Positions 37,139 to 41,676 of a DNA stretch of 64,000 bases are shown here, piece after piece (the first letter of the stretch is position 1; every line of letters starts with the position of its first letter). The position numbers were made by a program, and so were the translations under genes. This stretch comes from Rhodospirillaceae bacterium (lineage in GTDB: Bacteria; Pseudomonadota; Alphaproteobacteria; Bin65): NCBI GenBank assembly GCA_009840595.1, contig VXNK01000165.1:91321-155320 (forward strand). The letters are read 5' to 3'. A model generated the notes under the pieces. It was not told the origin of the DNA. It made no database searches and was given only the letters and a program-made list of their open reading frames with translations.

Positions 37139-37828
37139 TCATTCCGCTCTGGAAATTTGAATAATTAAGCTCCATGCTTGCCAATTCCCATACTCTTTTT
37201 GATAGTAATTTGGCAGAGTCCGCGCTAATTTATGGTGAATTGAAATTTTCCTTGAAGCATTATTGAATTCGTACTCGACATACTCCTTCACCTTTTTCAA
37301 ATAATTCTCGAATATTCCCTCTGGCGAATTAATCCTTCCCTCCCTTTTTGCAATCAACATCGCAAGAAACCCGTTATCGAGGTATCCTTGTTTGTTGGAA
37401 GAGTAACGATCAACAAGAGCGCAAATTCTTTGTAAGTCGAGCCAACAATTGTTATAATCCCATGATCGCTTTACTTCTATCACACAGGTTGGTTGATAAT
37501 CGCAATTAAACAATACAATATCAGCGCGGTTATTCTCATTTAGGGCGGTCGGACGGCGACCTCTCGCGATGTTGGCTGTGGAACAAGTTCTTATGTGCTT
37601 GAAGGCCACTTCCAATTCTAAGCTTTCGTCTTTGCTCTGTTTTTTGTTGATCGCTTCCGCAATTTCAGCAGTCATCAGGCCCTCGACGCCAGAATCGGTT
37701 ACCCAGCAACCCTTCGACCATTTTTCGTACTTTTCGTTCGCTGCGCATATCCCGCTATGTATCGCATTTGTTATCTGTCTTTCGCTGATTGGCATGAGAT
37801 TGCATCCTTCGATATATAGTGGTTCCAT
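37139..37828 (-). CDS. AT-rich hypothetical protein, candidate PD-(D/E)XK nuclease-like
   Basis: 229 aa; NNRADIVLFNCDYQPTCVIEVKRSWD gives D-x(n)-E-V-K; composition clearly AT-rich versus flanks; starts 6 nt after the WYL gene stop. Confidence 0.6.
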   Translation of the reverse strand: MEPLYIEGCNLMPISERQITNAIHSGICAANEKYEKWSKGCWVTDSGVEGLMTAEIAEAINKKQSKDESLELEVAFKHIRTCSTANIARGRRPTALNENNRADIVLFNCDYQPTCVIEVKRSWDYNNCWLDLQRICALVDRYSSNKQGYLDNGFLAMLIAKREGRINSPEGIFENYLKKVKEYVEYEFNNASRKISIHHKLARTLPNYYQKEYGNWQAWSLIIQISRAE

Positions 37829-37834
37829 ATAACC

Positions 37835-38824
37835 TTATCCATGATGCCCCGCCAGTCTCTCGCACATCTCCGCTAACCGCCGGCGCAGCCGAGCGGGTTT
37901 TTCGACCGTTACGCTGTCGCCCCAGGTGACGAGGTGCCAGCACATTTCGTCGAGGCCGCCGGCGGTGAAGCGCACCGTGAGCGTGCCGTCATCGTGGGCT
38001 TCGACGGTCTGGTCCGGATGGAAGAGGAAGGCGGCTGCGTCGTCCGCCGCGCGCGCGTCGAAGCGCAGGACGACGCGGACGGGCGTCTCCTGGAACGTGC
38101 CGAAGGACCGCCGGGCGTAGCGCTGGAGATCGAACGCCGGGTCGCGCTCGAAGCGCTCGCCGGACAGCCGGGCCTCGCCGACATTGGCGAGGCGCCACAG
38201 CCGCGGCCCGCCGCTCCAGCCGTCGGCCGCCCGCGCGACCAGAAAGGCCCGGTTGCCGTAGAGCAGGCCGTAGGGCTCGACGCGCTGCCGGCTTTGCCGT
38301 CCGGTCGAGCGCGCACGGTAGCGGAAGGTCACGACCCGGCGGGTCAGGATCGCCTCGCGCAGCAGGGCAAGCAGGGCGGCATCGACCGGCTGGCGCGGGC
38401 CGGGCCGCATCGCCAGGCCCTCGGCGCGCGTCAGGGTTTCAAGATCGGCGTCGAGCCGTTCCAGCGCCGCGCCGCGCTGCATCGCGCGCAGCTTGCTACC
38501 AATCTCCCGGAGCTTCGCCGCCTGCTCCTGCAAGCCCGTCCGTTCGAGCGCCGCGGCGGCAGTCGCCAAGGCCGTCAACTCTTCGGCCTCGAACCCGAGA
38601 AGATTGCGCAGGGCATTGGATTGCAGTCGCCAGTGCCGCTTGTTGTCATCGGCCGGGACAATATCCAGCGGCCCGAACGCCCAATCGACGGCATCCCGCA
38701 TCCGCTCTGCCGTCCGGCGGCTGACGGACATTTCTCGCTCTATATCGTCCAGGGTCAGGCCGCCGCGCGCGGCCTGAAGGCGGATTGCCAGGTCGATGAT
38801 GTCCTTCACGCGTTCGTATCGCAT
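37835..38824 (-). CDS. HTH + WYL-domain transcriptional regulator
   Basis: MRYERVKDIIDLAIRLQAARGGLTLDDIEREMSVSRRTAERMRDAV HTH; RRVVTFRYRARSTGRQSRQRVEPYGLLYGNRAFLVAR WYL-type region. Confidence 0.88.
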   Translation of the reverse strand: MRYERVKDIIDLAIRLQAARGGLTLDDIEREMSVSRRTAERMRDAVDWAFGPLDIVPADDNKRHWRLQSNALRNLLGFEAEELTALATAAAALERTGLQEQAAKLREIGSKLRAMQRGAALERLDADLETLTRAEGLAMRPGPRQPVDAALLALLREAILTRRVVTFRYRARSTGRQSRQRVEPYGLLYGNRAFLVARAADGWSGGPRLWRLANVGEARLSGERFERDPAFDLQRYARRSFGTFQETPVRVVLRFDARAADDAAAFLFHPDQTVEAHDDGTLTVRFTAGGLDEMCWHLVTWGDSVTVEKPARLRRRLAEMCERLAGHHG

Positions 38825-38909
38825 CCGGCCGTCCTCCCCGCATCCGGCGAGGGCGTCGCCCTCGACGATAACGGGCGACCATAGCCCGCGGCGCCGGGGC
38901 CCGGAACCG

Positions 38910-40982
38910 CTACGGCCGGAATCCGATCGCCGTGGGCCGCTCCGGCTTGGCGTCGCACTCGGCGCGCAGCATTTCGGCGAGGGCGCCCGCGTCCTGCAAC
39001 CGGCCCAGCAATCCGGCCTTGCGGCGCACGACTGCGAAATCGCCGGGGGTGAGCGCACTCAGCGCCGCCAGGGATGCCGGCGGCGGCAGCGAGAAGAATT
39101 TGCGGAACGCCGCATTAGCCTGTTCCGGCCCGAGATAGTCGAGCGCGATCTTGAATACGAAGCGCCGCAACGTCGCCGGGTCGAGATGCGTGCCGAAATT
39201 GGTCGTGCAGGCGAAGGGCAGCGGGTGGACCTCCATCCAGGTCAGCATCTCGTTGACCTGGCTGACCTCCCAGCTGCGCTGGGCGAAGCGGCGGTCGGCC
39301 AGCAGCGAATCGGCTTCGTCGAAGACCAGGAAGGCGCCGGTATCGCGCGCTTCGGCGAAAGCGCGGGCGATTTGCCGTTCGGTCTGCCCGACCCACATGG
39401 ACAGGAGGTCCGAGGCCCGCTTCTGCACGACCTCCAGGCCGAGGCGCTCGGCGAGATAGCGGACGCAGGCGCTCTTGCCAGTGCCCGGCGGCCCCTGGAG
39501 GCAGAGCGAGAACCGCCCCGCGCCGGCGGATACGAGGCGGTCGGCCAGCACACCCGGATCGGTGTCGGCCCGGATCAGGCCGGGATCGAAGCCGGCCGGC
39601 GCCGCCTGGGGCGGCCTGCCGCAGGAGAGGACGCGGGACAGGCTCTCGACGCCGCGGCGCACTGCGGCGATGTCGCCGCCCGCGAGATGGGCGGCGGCGG
39701 TCGCCCCGGCCGCGACGCCGGGTGCGGCGTCGAACTCGGCGGCGAGCGCCTGCACGTCTTCCGGCGCCGCCTCGATACCGTGGCGGTCGAGCTGGCGCGA
39801 CCAGACCCGCGCTCTAACCTTCATCGTCGGCGGGCGCAATTCGAATGCGAACATCATGCGCCGGAGAATCGCCGGGCTGACATCCCGTGCATCGTTCATG
39901 GTCCACAGGGTCGGCGCCGGCGTCTTCTCCAATAGCCGGTTCATGAATATCTTCGAGGAAGACGCACGGGTTCCGGACGAGAACATCCGACCGAAAATGC
40001 CGAAACCGCTGTCCGGGCCGCTGAGCAAGTCGTCCATTTCGTCGAACAGGAGCAGCGCCCGCCGGTTTCCGGCCAACAGACGCTGGGCCAGCGTGAGCTC
40101 CCGAAGTCGCTCTGTGCGGGTAGGTTCGTCGCCGTCCTCGTCCGCCTCGCCGATGCTGTAGAGCGTTGCGCCGAGGCGTTGGGCCAACATCTTGCAGAAT
40201 TCGGTCTTGCCGGTTCCCGGCGGCCCGTAGAGCAGGATGTTGACGCCCGGTGCGTCGCTGTCGAGTGCGCCCTTCACCAAAGTCTCGACATGATCGCGGT
40301 CGTCGGCGACATGATCGAAATCCAGCCGTTCGAGATCGCCCGGTGAGGCGGCATCCAGCAGCAGGCTCGTCACATCGGCATTTTCGTCGCCTGACGCAGC
40401 GACCAAGCGAAGCAGCCGCCCGGCTATCTGGATTTCGCCATCGTAATCGACGGAAACCGCCCCCGACCGGACCAACGGACAATCATCCTGCAAACGCGAT
40501 TGGATTCTGTTCGGAGACAGCCCGAGAAGGAGAGGCAGTGCCCGGCACCTGACGTTGAGCGGCGCTCCGTGCCTCGAGTAATCGTCGAAGATATCGTCGA
40601 TAACCGACTCGAATGCCGAATGCGTCTTGTACCGCAATGCGAATTCCAGGATTCGGACGTCGGTCGGGTCGAGTCGCATCGCTTCGCCGAAGCGCAGGAG
40701 CCGCAACGCGGTCCGGTCAGGTTCGGCCTCCTTCGCCGAATTATCGTTCCGCAGAGTTCGCACGATGCAGCGCAGAGCCGCGTCCGATGGCTGCGATACG
40801 TCGATCTCGGGAAGGTTCAGGTCGACCCAGTCCTTTCTTTTGCGGCGGGCAAACGAGTCGCGGTTATCGGGATCGACGATCCATTCGACCAGATTCCGCG
40901 CCAACCCTTCGCGCGAGTTGAGGCGGGAGGCGGCGTTCGCCAGATAGTCTGTGAGCAGATACCGCTCGTAGTCGGTCAGCAT
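38910..40982 (-). CDS. AAA+ ATPase with two nucleotide-binding sites and a unique N-terminal region
   Basis: 690 aa; LLYGPPGTGKTEFCKMLAQRLG..ALLLFDEMDDLL and LQGPPGTGKSACVRYLAERLG..AFLVFDEADSLLADRRFAQRSWEVSQVNEMLTWME. Confidence 0.9.
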   Translation of the reverse strand: MLTDYERYLLTDYLANAASRLNSREGLARNLVEWIVDPDNRDSFARRKRKDWVDLNLPEIDVSQPSDAALRCIVRTLRNDNSAKEAEPDRTALRLLRFGEAMRLDPTDVRILEFALRYKTHSAFESVIDDIFDDYSRHGAPLNVRCRALPLLLGLSPNRIQSRLQDDCPLVRSGAVSVDYDGEIQIAGRLLRLVAASGDENADVTSLLLDAASPGDLERLDFDHVADDRDHVETLVKGALDSDAPGVNILLYGPPGTGKTEFCKMLAQRLGATLYSIGEADEDGDEPTRTERLRELTLAQRLLAGNRRALLLFDEMDDLLSGPDSGFGIFGRMFSSGTRASSSKIFMNRLLEKTPAPTLWTMNDARDVSPAILRRMMFAFELRPPTMKVRARVWSRQLDRHGIEAAPEDVQALAAEFDAAPGVAAGATAAAHLAGGDIAAVRRGVESLSRVLSCGRPPQAAPAGFDPGLIRADTDPGVLADRLVSAGAGRFSLCLQGPPGTGKSACVRYLAERLGLEVVQKRASDLLSMWVGQTERQIARAFAEARDTGAFLVFDEADSLLADRRFAQRSWEVSQVNEMLTWMEVHPLPFACTTNFGTHLDPATLRRFVFKIALDYLGPEQANAAFRKFFSLPPPASLAALSALTPGDFAVVRRKAGLLGRLQDAGALAEMLRAECDAKPERPTAIGFRP

Positions 40983-41210: not shown

Positions 41211-41250
41211 CATGACAGATCGTATCGGAACATGACATTTCATGACACGG
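41211..41250. repeat. 10-bp phased repeat array, left block
   Basis: catgacagat|cgtatcggaa|catgacattt|catgacacgg. Confidence 0.85.
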
Positions 41251-41293
41251 GCCATCCCCTCTTCTGTCATCCCGACCGGTCGCAACCCCCGTC

Positions 41294-41440
41294 GTCATTC
41301 CGACCGAGCGAAGCGCGCGGAGGAATCTCGACTCGATCGCGGACATGCAAATCCCGGAAGCCGGCGACGAGATTCCTCCCCTTCGACTTCGCTCAGGGCA
41401 GGCTACTTCGCGGACTGGCGGCCGCTCCGGTCGGAATGAC
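41294..41440. repeat. 147-bp element with 13-bp inverted termini GTCATTCCGACCG...CGGTCGGAATGAC (MITE/dispersed-repeat-like)
   Basis: Perfect terminal inverted repeat; internal GAGGAATCTC/GAGATTCCTC inverted motif and CCCTTCG..CTCAGGGCAGGCT. Confidence 0.8.
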
Positions 41441-41473
41441 GGGTGGGGTTGGAGCGAACACCGAAAGCCGGAA

Positions 41474-41503
41474 CATGACAAATCATGACATTTCCTGACG
41501 CCT
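41474..41503. repeat. 10-bp phased repeat array, middle block
   Basis: catgacaaat|catgacattt|cctgacgcct. Confidence 0.85.
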
Positions 41504-41566
41504 CGGGAGAGTCCGGCCGCCACCTCTGCCGCGGCGGGCTCGACCCGATATCCGGAAGCGGCCGGA

Positions 41567-41676
41567 CATGACGGAACCTGACATTTCCCGACACATCCTG
41601 ACGGAGCACGACATTCCCCGATGCAACCCGACCGAACCTGACATTTCCTGACACACCATGACATTCCGCGATTCCT
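41567..41676. repeat. 10-bp phased repeat array, right block (11 units)
   Basis: catgacggaa|cctgacattt|cccgacacat|cctgacggag|cacgacattc|cccgatgcaa|cccgaccgaa|cctgacattt|cctgacacac|catgacattc|cgcgattcct. Confidence 0.9.

Follow-up and report, generated by a model that had tools for sequence, protein, structure and literature searches.

The 10-bp repeat array in the window analysed here appears to belong to a set of dozens of docking sites on the chromosome for which, judging from the sequences at these sites and the genes beside them, the likeliest binder is an orphan small terminase (TerS) of the SF6/SPP1 type; we consider this assignment probable. In our best reading, the arrays would serve as pac-like sites for TerS rings that are orphan and SOS-linked, whose binding and purpose at these sites we infer. 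The window is the whole 64,000-nucleotide stretch of DNA that was analysed (C16:91321-155320), part of a 4.1 Mb alphaproteobacterial draft genome in 168 contigs, hereafter the host genome (G000).

The array consists of three blocks on the forward strand within 41211-41676, and both their coordinates and their sequence were verified. Block 1 (41211..41250; CATGACAGAT cgtatcggaa CATGACATTT CATGACACGG) has four slots at 10-bp pitch, three of them matching, block 2 (41474..41503; CATGACAAAT CATGACATTT CCTGACGCCT) is a complete three-unit core, and block 3 (41567..41676) comprises 11 consecutive 10-bp slots, or ~3.5 tandem copies of a 30-bp module, the last slot (CGCGATTCCT) being weak. The longest chain of [CT]GA[CT] words at exact 10-bp steps in the window has 11 members and is located at the array, whereas no chain exceeded 4 members when the window was simulated 60 times with a first-order Markov model; the phased array reported in the initial annotation is therefore real. 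The 466 array bases also hold 9 of the 19 TGACA words in the window. The true repeat is the 30-bp module, composed of three unlike 10-mers (CATGACRAAT-CATGACATTT-CMTGACACAT) that end in RAAT, ATTT and ACAT, as defined by a TRF period of 30 and a profile of 71 genome copies. Unit and module alike are direct repeats with no palindromic arms, and so do not form the hairpin of REP/BIME elements. A REP-like inverted repeat at about 41294..41440 (GTCATTCCGACCGAGCG ... GCTCCGGTCGGAATGAC) separates blocks 1 and 2 and is unrelated to the array; its family (GTCATTCCGACC...GGTCGGAATGAC) is very abundant, with 82 genome matches, and frequently sits between arrays.

The neighbouring genes, a double AAA+ ATPase gene (38910..40982) and a WYL/WCX regulator gene (37835..38824), both on the reverse strand, lie outside the array system. 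Together (37835-40982), with orthologues in 3 of the 7 genomes of the genus, they show a weak likeness to the anti-phage ATPase IetA and are possibly a defence-type pair. The product of the gene beside the WYL gene (37139-37828) has no Pfam match, and this gene was probably acquired recently, because its G+C is low relative to its surroundings (0.36/0.32/0.42 by codon position in the called 3' part, versus ~0.7/0.5/0.87 around it).

A genome-wide scan for the 10-mer at fixed 10-bp spacing, proposed in the initial annotation, revealed a family of such arrays. The host genome contains 85 TGACA-N5-TGACA pairs at ~40 loci, with a single match for the reversed-pattern control. Conservation in related strains, also raised there, is borne out, with arrays in all seven genomes of the genus: five of the six genus-mates have 62-112 pairs and the sixth (G006) just 7. 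In a second genus, 55 pairs were counted in one genome, and four additional MAGs have about 200-266 (under a slightly stricter pattern), while elsewhere in the class counts are at background level (0-6). Array-bearing relatives include the MAGs Rhodospirillaceae bacterium bin65, Spongia_Bin9, CO36386bin_9 and similar ones; from MAG names and prior knowledge, we take the array-bearing MAGs to come largely from marine sponges. The profile of 71 copies has a sharp ~30-bp three-unit core and little conservation outside it, and throughout the genome the unit sequence and the 10-bp pitch are kept while the flanks are not.

Small numbers of arrays were also seen further afield. In two Thalassospira species, with ~10 pairs per genome versus 1 reversed, the DNA repair gene uvrB is preceded, at a distance of ~80 bp, by a three-unit array of this motif (CCTGACATCTCCTGACATTTCCTGACA; L109:1915-1939 and L111:3461-3485). 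A Chloroflexota MAG (L112) and a Carbobacillus MAG (L119), from unrelated phyla, also hold this 10-bp motif in a few arrays, which in the former lie within a ~79-bp tandem repeat. The TerS motif was not found in the 8-kb array loci of Thalassospira, the Chloroflexota MAG and Carbobacillus.

Within clusters the blocks share a single orientation, as seen in 44 of 44 multi-block clusters. The spacers between blocks are often REP-like inverted repeats (of two kinds), a ~600-bp module with GACCGGTCTGTC, or 60-bp remnants. This ~600-bp module, in which GACCGGTCTGTC is a TetR-operator-like palindrome and which ends in an array, was seen at L006, L053, L061 and L070 and recurs upstream of unrelated genes. 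Arrays tend to come after a same-strand gene and are rarer between divergent genes (0/13 in the sister genus g3, 12/53 in g1) than in other intergenic gaps, a modest depletion measured against a small g3 background (combined Fisher p 0.006).

Comparisons between species reveal gains and losses, from which we conclude that arrays and their modules come and go. At one site an array-REP-array arrangement in the host corresponds to a single array in G001, a REP+array segment having been gained or lost; at another, the array position is common to two species and the upstream modules differ; at a third, the host has an array with its upstream module and the relative has nothing (L006 vs L150). The presence-absence pairs L006/L150, L060/L201 and L061/L148 show no clean target-site duplication or inverted ends. 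Modules upstream of arrays are common to several loci, and this sharing of sequence stops at the array end. At the window's own site the array cluster coincides with a break in gene order; in G001 arrays also lie upstream of the same AAA+ gene, and the spacers and the far-side gene differ.

Some arrays sit inside or at the end of Terminase_2 (small terminase, TerS) genes. An HMM search detected 1-7 stand-alone Terminase_2 genes per genome in 15 of the 16 genomes of the family; being repeated, the genes frequently lie at contig ends. The only family genome with no detected TerS is G006, the one with 7 array pairs. Among 24 distinct TerS genes, 16 are followed by the array of their genus, 0.3-1.8 kb past the HTH and on the gene's own strand, and none has it on the opposite strand. 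The remaining genes have an array of another motif (2/24), are cut by contig ends (4/24) or have no array (2/24); when other motifs are included, same-strand arrays accompany 18 of the 20 assessable TerS genes. This adjacency is far above the ~1% expected by chance per gene and is on the same strand in every case. The TerS stop codon is frequently within the array, also at L236, where the array has a different motif (GAAAGTAGGT), and three host TerS genes contain internal in-frame units with TTACA for TGACA (CCTTACA), which avoid a stop. TerS is the only recurrent gene seen at arrays, and this in two genera.

These TerS genes stand alone. No phage genes were among their neighbours at the loci read, and a search for the Terminase_6N large terminase (TerL) gave no match in the host genome, G001 and G053 and only weak or isolated matches elsewhere; with no such TerL in the host genome, packaging would need a helper phage. 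TerS genes are far fewer than arrays, and at most array loci, that of the window included, there is no TerS remnant; in G009 a clear array is missing at two of the three TerS genes inspected. An apparent decayed TerS copy (L135:1572-1985) is broken just past the HTH and runs directly into an array. Distant TerS matches in other alphaproteobacteria are mostly of the ordinary prophage type without 10-bp arrays, phage records gave TerS matches of < 60% identity only, and a search of plasmids at 1e-8 gave none. In G117, from another alphaproteobacterial family, we observed nine stand-alone, dispersed TerS genes (L351-L359), seven of them mostly about 88-95% identical and two 98.7%. The repeated unit there is a single gene, since homology starts ~90-120 bp before the HTH and often ends at the stop codon, and neither a transposase nor a 10-bp array was seen at these genes. 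In G082, a lone TerS-like gene is directly followed by a 15-bp direct repeat in about four copies (CCCATCTCTTATTGG; L361 ~2400-2500), a pitch other than the 10 bp of the arrays.

By profile and by the predicted fold of its DNA-binding domain, the protein matches a small terminase of the SF6/SPP1 type. It matches PF03592 (Terminase_2) with an E value of 1e-12, exceeding the cut-off in 15 of 16 genomes, and its profile matches the solved SF6 TerS structures at about 1e-12. The predicted model (pLDDT 90.8) has as its top Foldseek matches 3zqq, 4zc3 and the PaP3 and NV1 TerS proteins, with a TM-score of 0.85 for the DNA-binding domain and weak whole-chain E values (0.02-2). From homology, we infer that it would assemble into a ring of 8-11 subunits.

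Upstream of the HTH, at 65-145 bp, 13 of 39 TerS genes carry GAACN7GAAC, the alphaproteobacterial LexA site (PMC3091678), and 11 of these genes are in genomes with TGACA arrays. Chance would yield 0.03 per 320-bp window, although the count overstates the case because related TerS copies are not independent. The two halves of the motif are fixed while its seven middle bases vary, a pattern that supports a function. The motif is missing from the g3 TerS genes and from most of the G117 copies.

A second array motif in the sister genus g3 (G008, G010) separates the geometry of the arrays from their sequence. These genomes have TerS genes and no TGACA arrays, and their TerS genes end in 10-bp arrays of other sequences, with AAAGCCAA as the main motif; in G010 separate TerS paralogues end in separate array motifs. 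The dispersal of AAAGCCAA in g3 was predicted before the genome count, in which AAAGCCAANNAAAGCCAA had 72 and 44 copies in the two g3 genomes, with none for the reversed control and none in G000, G003 and G009. Two stereotyped layouts, with 8-10 units, predominate among the g3 elements. An alignment of nine elements that share one layout shows near-invariant 8-bp units at near-invariant spacing, and unconserved spacers and surroundings. Because the units are invariant while the spacers have diverged beyond recognition, we conclude that the units are under selection, in the pattern of a protein contact. The motif thus differs between genera and the 10-bp pitch stays. In the g3 TerS genes the array encodes a lysine-rich protein tail (KPRKAK repeats). 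Another g3 motif, TCAACATTCG, forms 3-4 exact triple arrays per genome, and we dropped it as a dispersed motif since its copies are too few. We also rejected a three-frame translation stop as the purpose of the arrays: AAAGCCAA has no stop codon and retains the pitch, so that such a stop is a by-product at most.

How might a TerS ring engage such an array? In the SF6-type protein the HTH domains are on the rim of the ring, with adjacent ones about one turn of B-DNA apart, and a model in which DNA wraps around the ring was proposed (PMC4737164). By analogy, the 10-bp direct-repeat array may be the DNA counterpart of the TerS rim: the ring would present HTH domains about one helical turn apart, successive domains would contact successive 10-bp units, and the ring would wrap or clamp the array in the manner of a pac site. 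That the SF6 ring is built of nine subunits (PMC9611059) and the g3 elements of 8-10 units is a suggestive coincidence, nothing further. TerS expression would rise on DNA damage. Docking could then steer the capture of chromosomal DNA by the packaging motor of an infecting or induced phage, or it could have been domesticated for a function at gene 3' ends. The binding of purified SF6 TerS to pac DNA was weak and showed no preference for sequence (PMC4737164), and the HK97 TerS threads DNA through its channel with no wrapping, while the channels of SF6 and SPP1 TerS appear too narrow for DNA (PMC11331095). In view of the poor sequence recognition by SF6 TerS and the threading seen with the HK97 protein, we rate TerS no higher than the probable cognate of the arrays and give any particular purpose a lower probability.

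Several other explanations have to be weighed. The initial annotation considered the arrays as sites for a regulator, a replication initiator or a transposase. A platform from which the adjacent WYL regulator controls the AAA+/WYL operon would fit the position of the array upstream of the AAA+ gene in the host and in G001. However, ~40 further host arrays adjoin unrelated genes, the AAA+ orthologue is present in only three of the seven array-bearing genomes of the genus, and the orthologue in G006 has no array upstream. The expectation that arrays always precede AAA+/WYL genes therefore fails, a general operator role is refuted, and as an explanation of the array the WYL platform is extremely unlikely. 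Transposase binding at the ends of insertion sequences is scarcely better placed and very improbable: the arrays are dispersed and polymorphic between species, and one g3 array (L266) abuts an IS3-like element, but all 20 tested neighbours of host arrays are housekeeping genes (NUDIX, Lgt, Hsp33, FtsJ, ZnuA, IlvH, PyrD etc.), none is a transposase, and no opposed array pair enclosing a transposase was seen. We rejected the initiator reading because ~40 loci per genome are far too many. What stands of the proposed cooperative platform is its phased form on one face of the DNA, to which the conserved units and pitch and the free spacers of g3 point; the WYL, initiator and transposase candidates for its binder do not stand.

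The arrays could instead be a selfish dispersed repeat, similar to REP or MITE elements, with no cognate protein in use and with TerS genes as passengers to which the array supplies a 3' end and stop codons. Such a repeat would account for the upstream modules common to loci up to the array end, for the REP+array segments gained or lost between species (among them the array and module absent in the relative at L006 vs L150), for copy numbers ranging from 7 to over 200, and for the three-frame stops, since three TGAs at 10-bp steps follow from the pitch. We consider it unlikely, as it does not account for the selection needed to hold the g3 units invariant while their spacers diverged, for a pitch shared by motifs of different stop-codon content (AAAGCCAA having none), or for a same-strand adjacency of TerS and array so far over chance. 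Yet another host protein might bind the arrays in chromosome architecture, segregation, transcription termination or insulation, with TerS genes merely nearby. The excess of arrays over TerS genes, the avoidance of divergent promoters (p 0.006), the tendency to trail a same-strand gene and the unidirectional clusters all agree with this; the recurrence of TerS, and of no other gene, at arrays of two genera and the different array motifs at the ends of the G010 TerS paralogues argue against it, and we judge it quite improbable.

The preferred reading, in which orphan TerS rings dock at the arrays, has relatives among known systems. One of the closest is phage TerS with its pac site (SPP1/SF6, Terminase_2 PF03592). 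As in the present case, the protein has a helical fold with an HTH domain, its gene contains or adjoins repeated recognition elements, and its ring geometry would set neighbouring HTHs roughly a helical turn from each other (PMC4737164). Unlike the phage genes, the TerS here is a lone, multi-copy chromosomal gene for which the Terminase_6N search found no TerL, and its putative sites are scattered over the chromosome in dozens to over 200 copies. The pac boxes of SPP1 and SF6 differ from the arrays in having no 10-bp phasing, and purified SF6 TerS has little sequence preference. Phage-inducible chromosomal islands are satellites that encode TerS outside a phage, under LexA/SOS-type control and in dependence on a helper phage. 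The TerS genes described here are likewise outside phages, with putative LexA/SOS-type control and possibly helper dependence; however, they appear to come with no integrase and no island of linked genes, only as single genes and bare arrays.

Other likenesses are to the arrays themselves. Like REP/BIME and MITE elements they are intergenic, numerous, variable between species and often mixed with REP-like palindromes, but they are non-palindromic, with a fixed 10-bp pitch and conserved units among free spacers, and their motif is genus-specific while their geometry is constant. As with ParB-parS and FtsK-KOPS, many oriented copies of a short motif are present per chromosome and the cognate motif shifts with lineage; here the candidate binder is instead TerS, and the sites are phased arrays of several units, grouped in variable clusters. 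Integron cassettes (attC) also form chains of variable segments that end in the same element in one orientation, whereas the array is non-palindromic and most of the segments are REP-like and non-coding. Our search of the open-access literature yielded no description of a lone TerS with genus-specific, chromosome-wide phased arrays. Each ingredient (TerS, pac sites, REP elements and chromosome-wide motifs) has relatives, and the pairing of TerS with arrays would be new if real; if TerS is only a passenger, the arrays would be a new dispersed repeat family.

How TerS recognises DNA, whether by wrapping it around the rim or threading it through the channel, and whether sequence plays any part in this, is debated (PMC11331095, PMC9611059, PMC4737164). 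Scores of natural phased arrays with an adjacent candidate TerS supply what this debate lacks, and the two versions of the motif, together with changed recognition helices, make a specificity swap and a pitch-change experiment possible. We speculate, with more doubt than confidence, that a phage recognition module of TerS and pac-like arrays left phages and, under SOS control, came to be spread over host chromosomes, such that on DNA damage or prophage induction a lone TerS would mark dozens of oriented sites for the packaging motor of a helper phage, as a genome-wide transduction system or as a decoy that spoils packaging. If the pairing is true, these bacteria would carry an undescribed class of host-borne element that ties phage packaging proteins to chromosome-wide sites.
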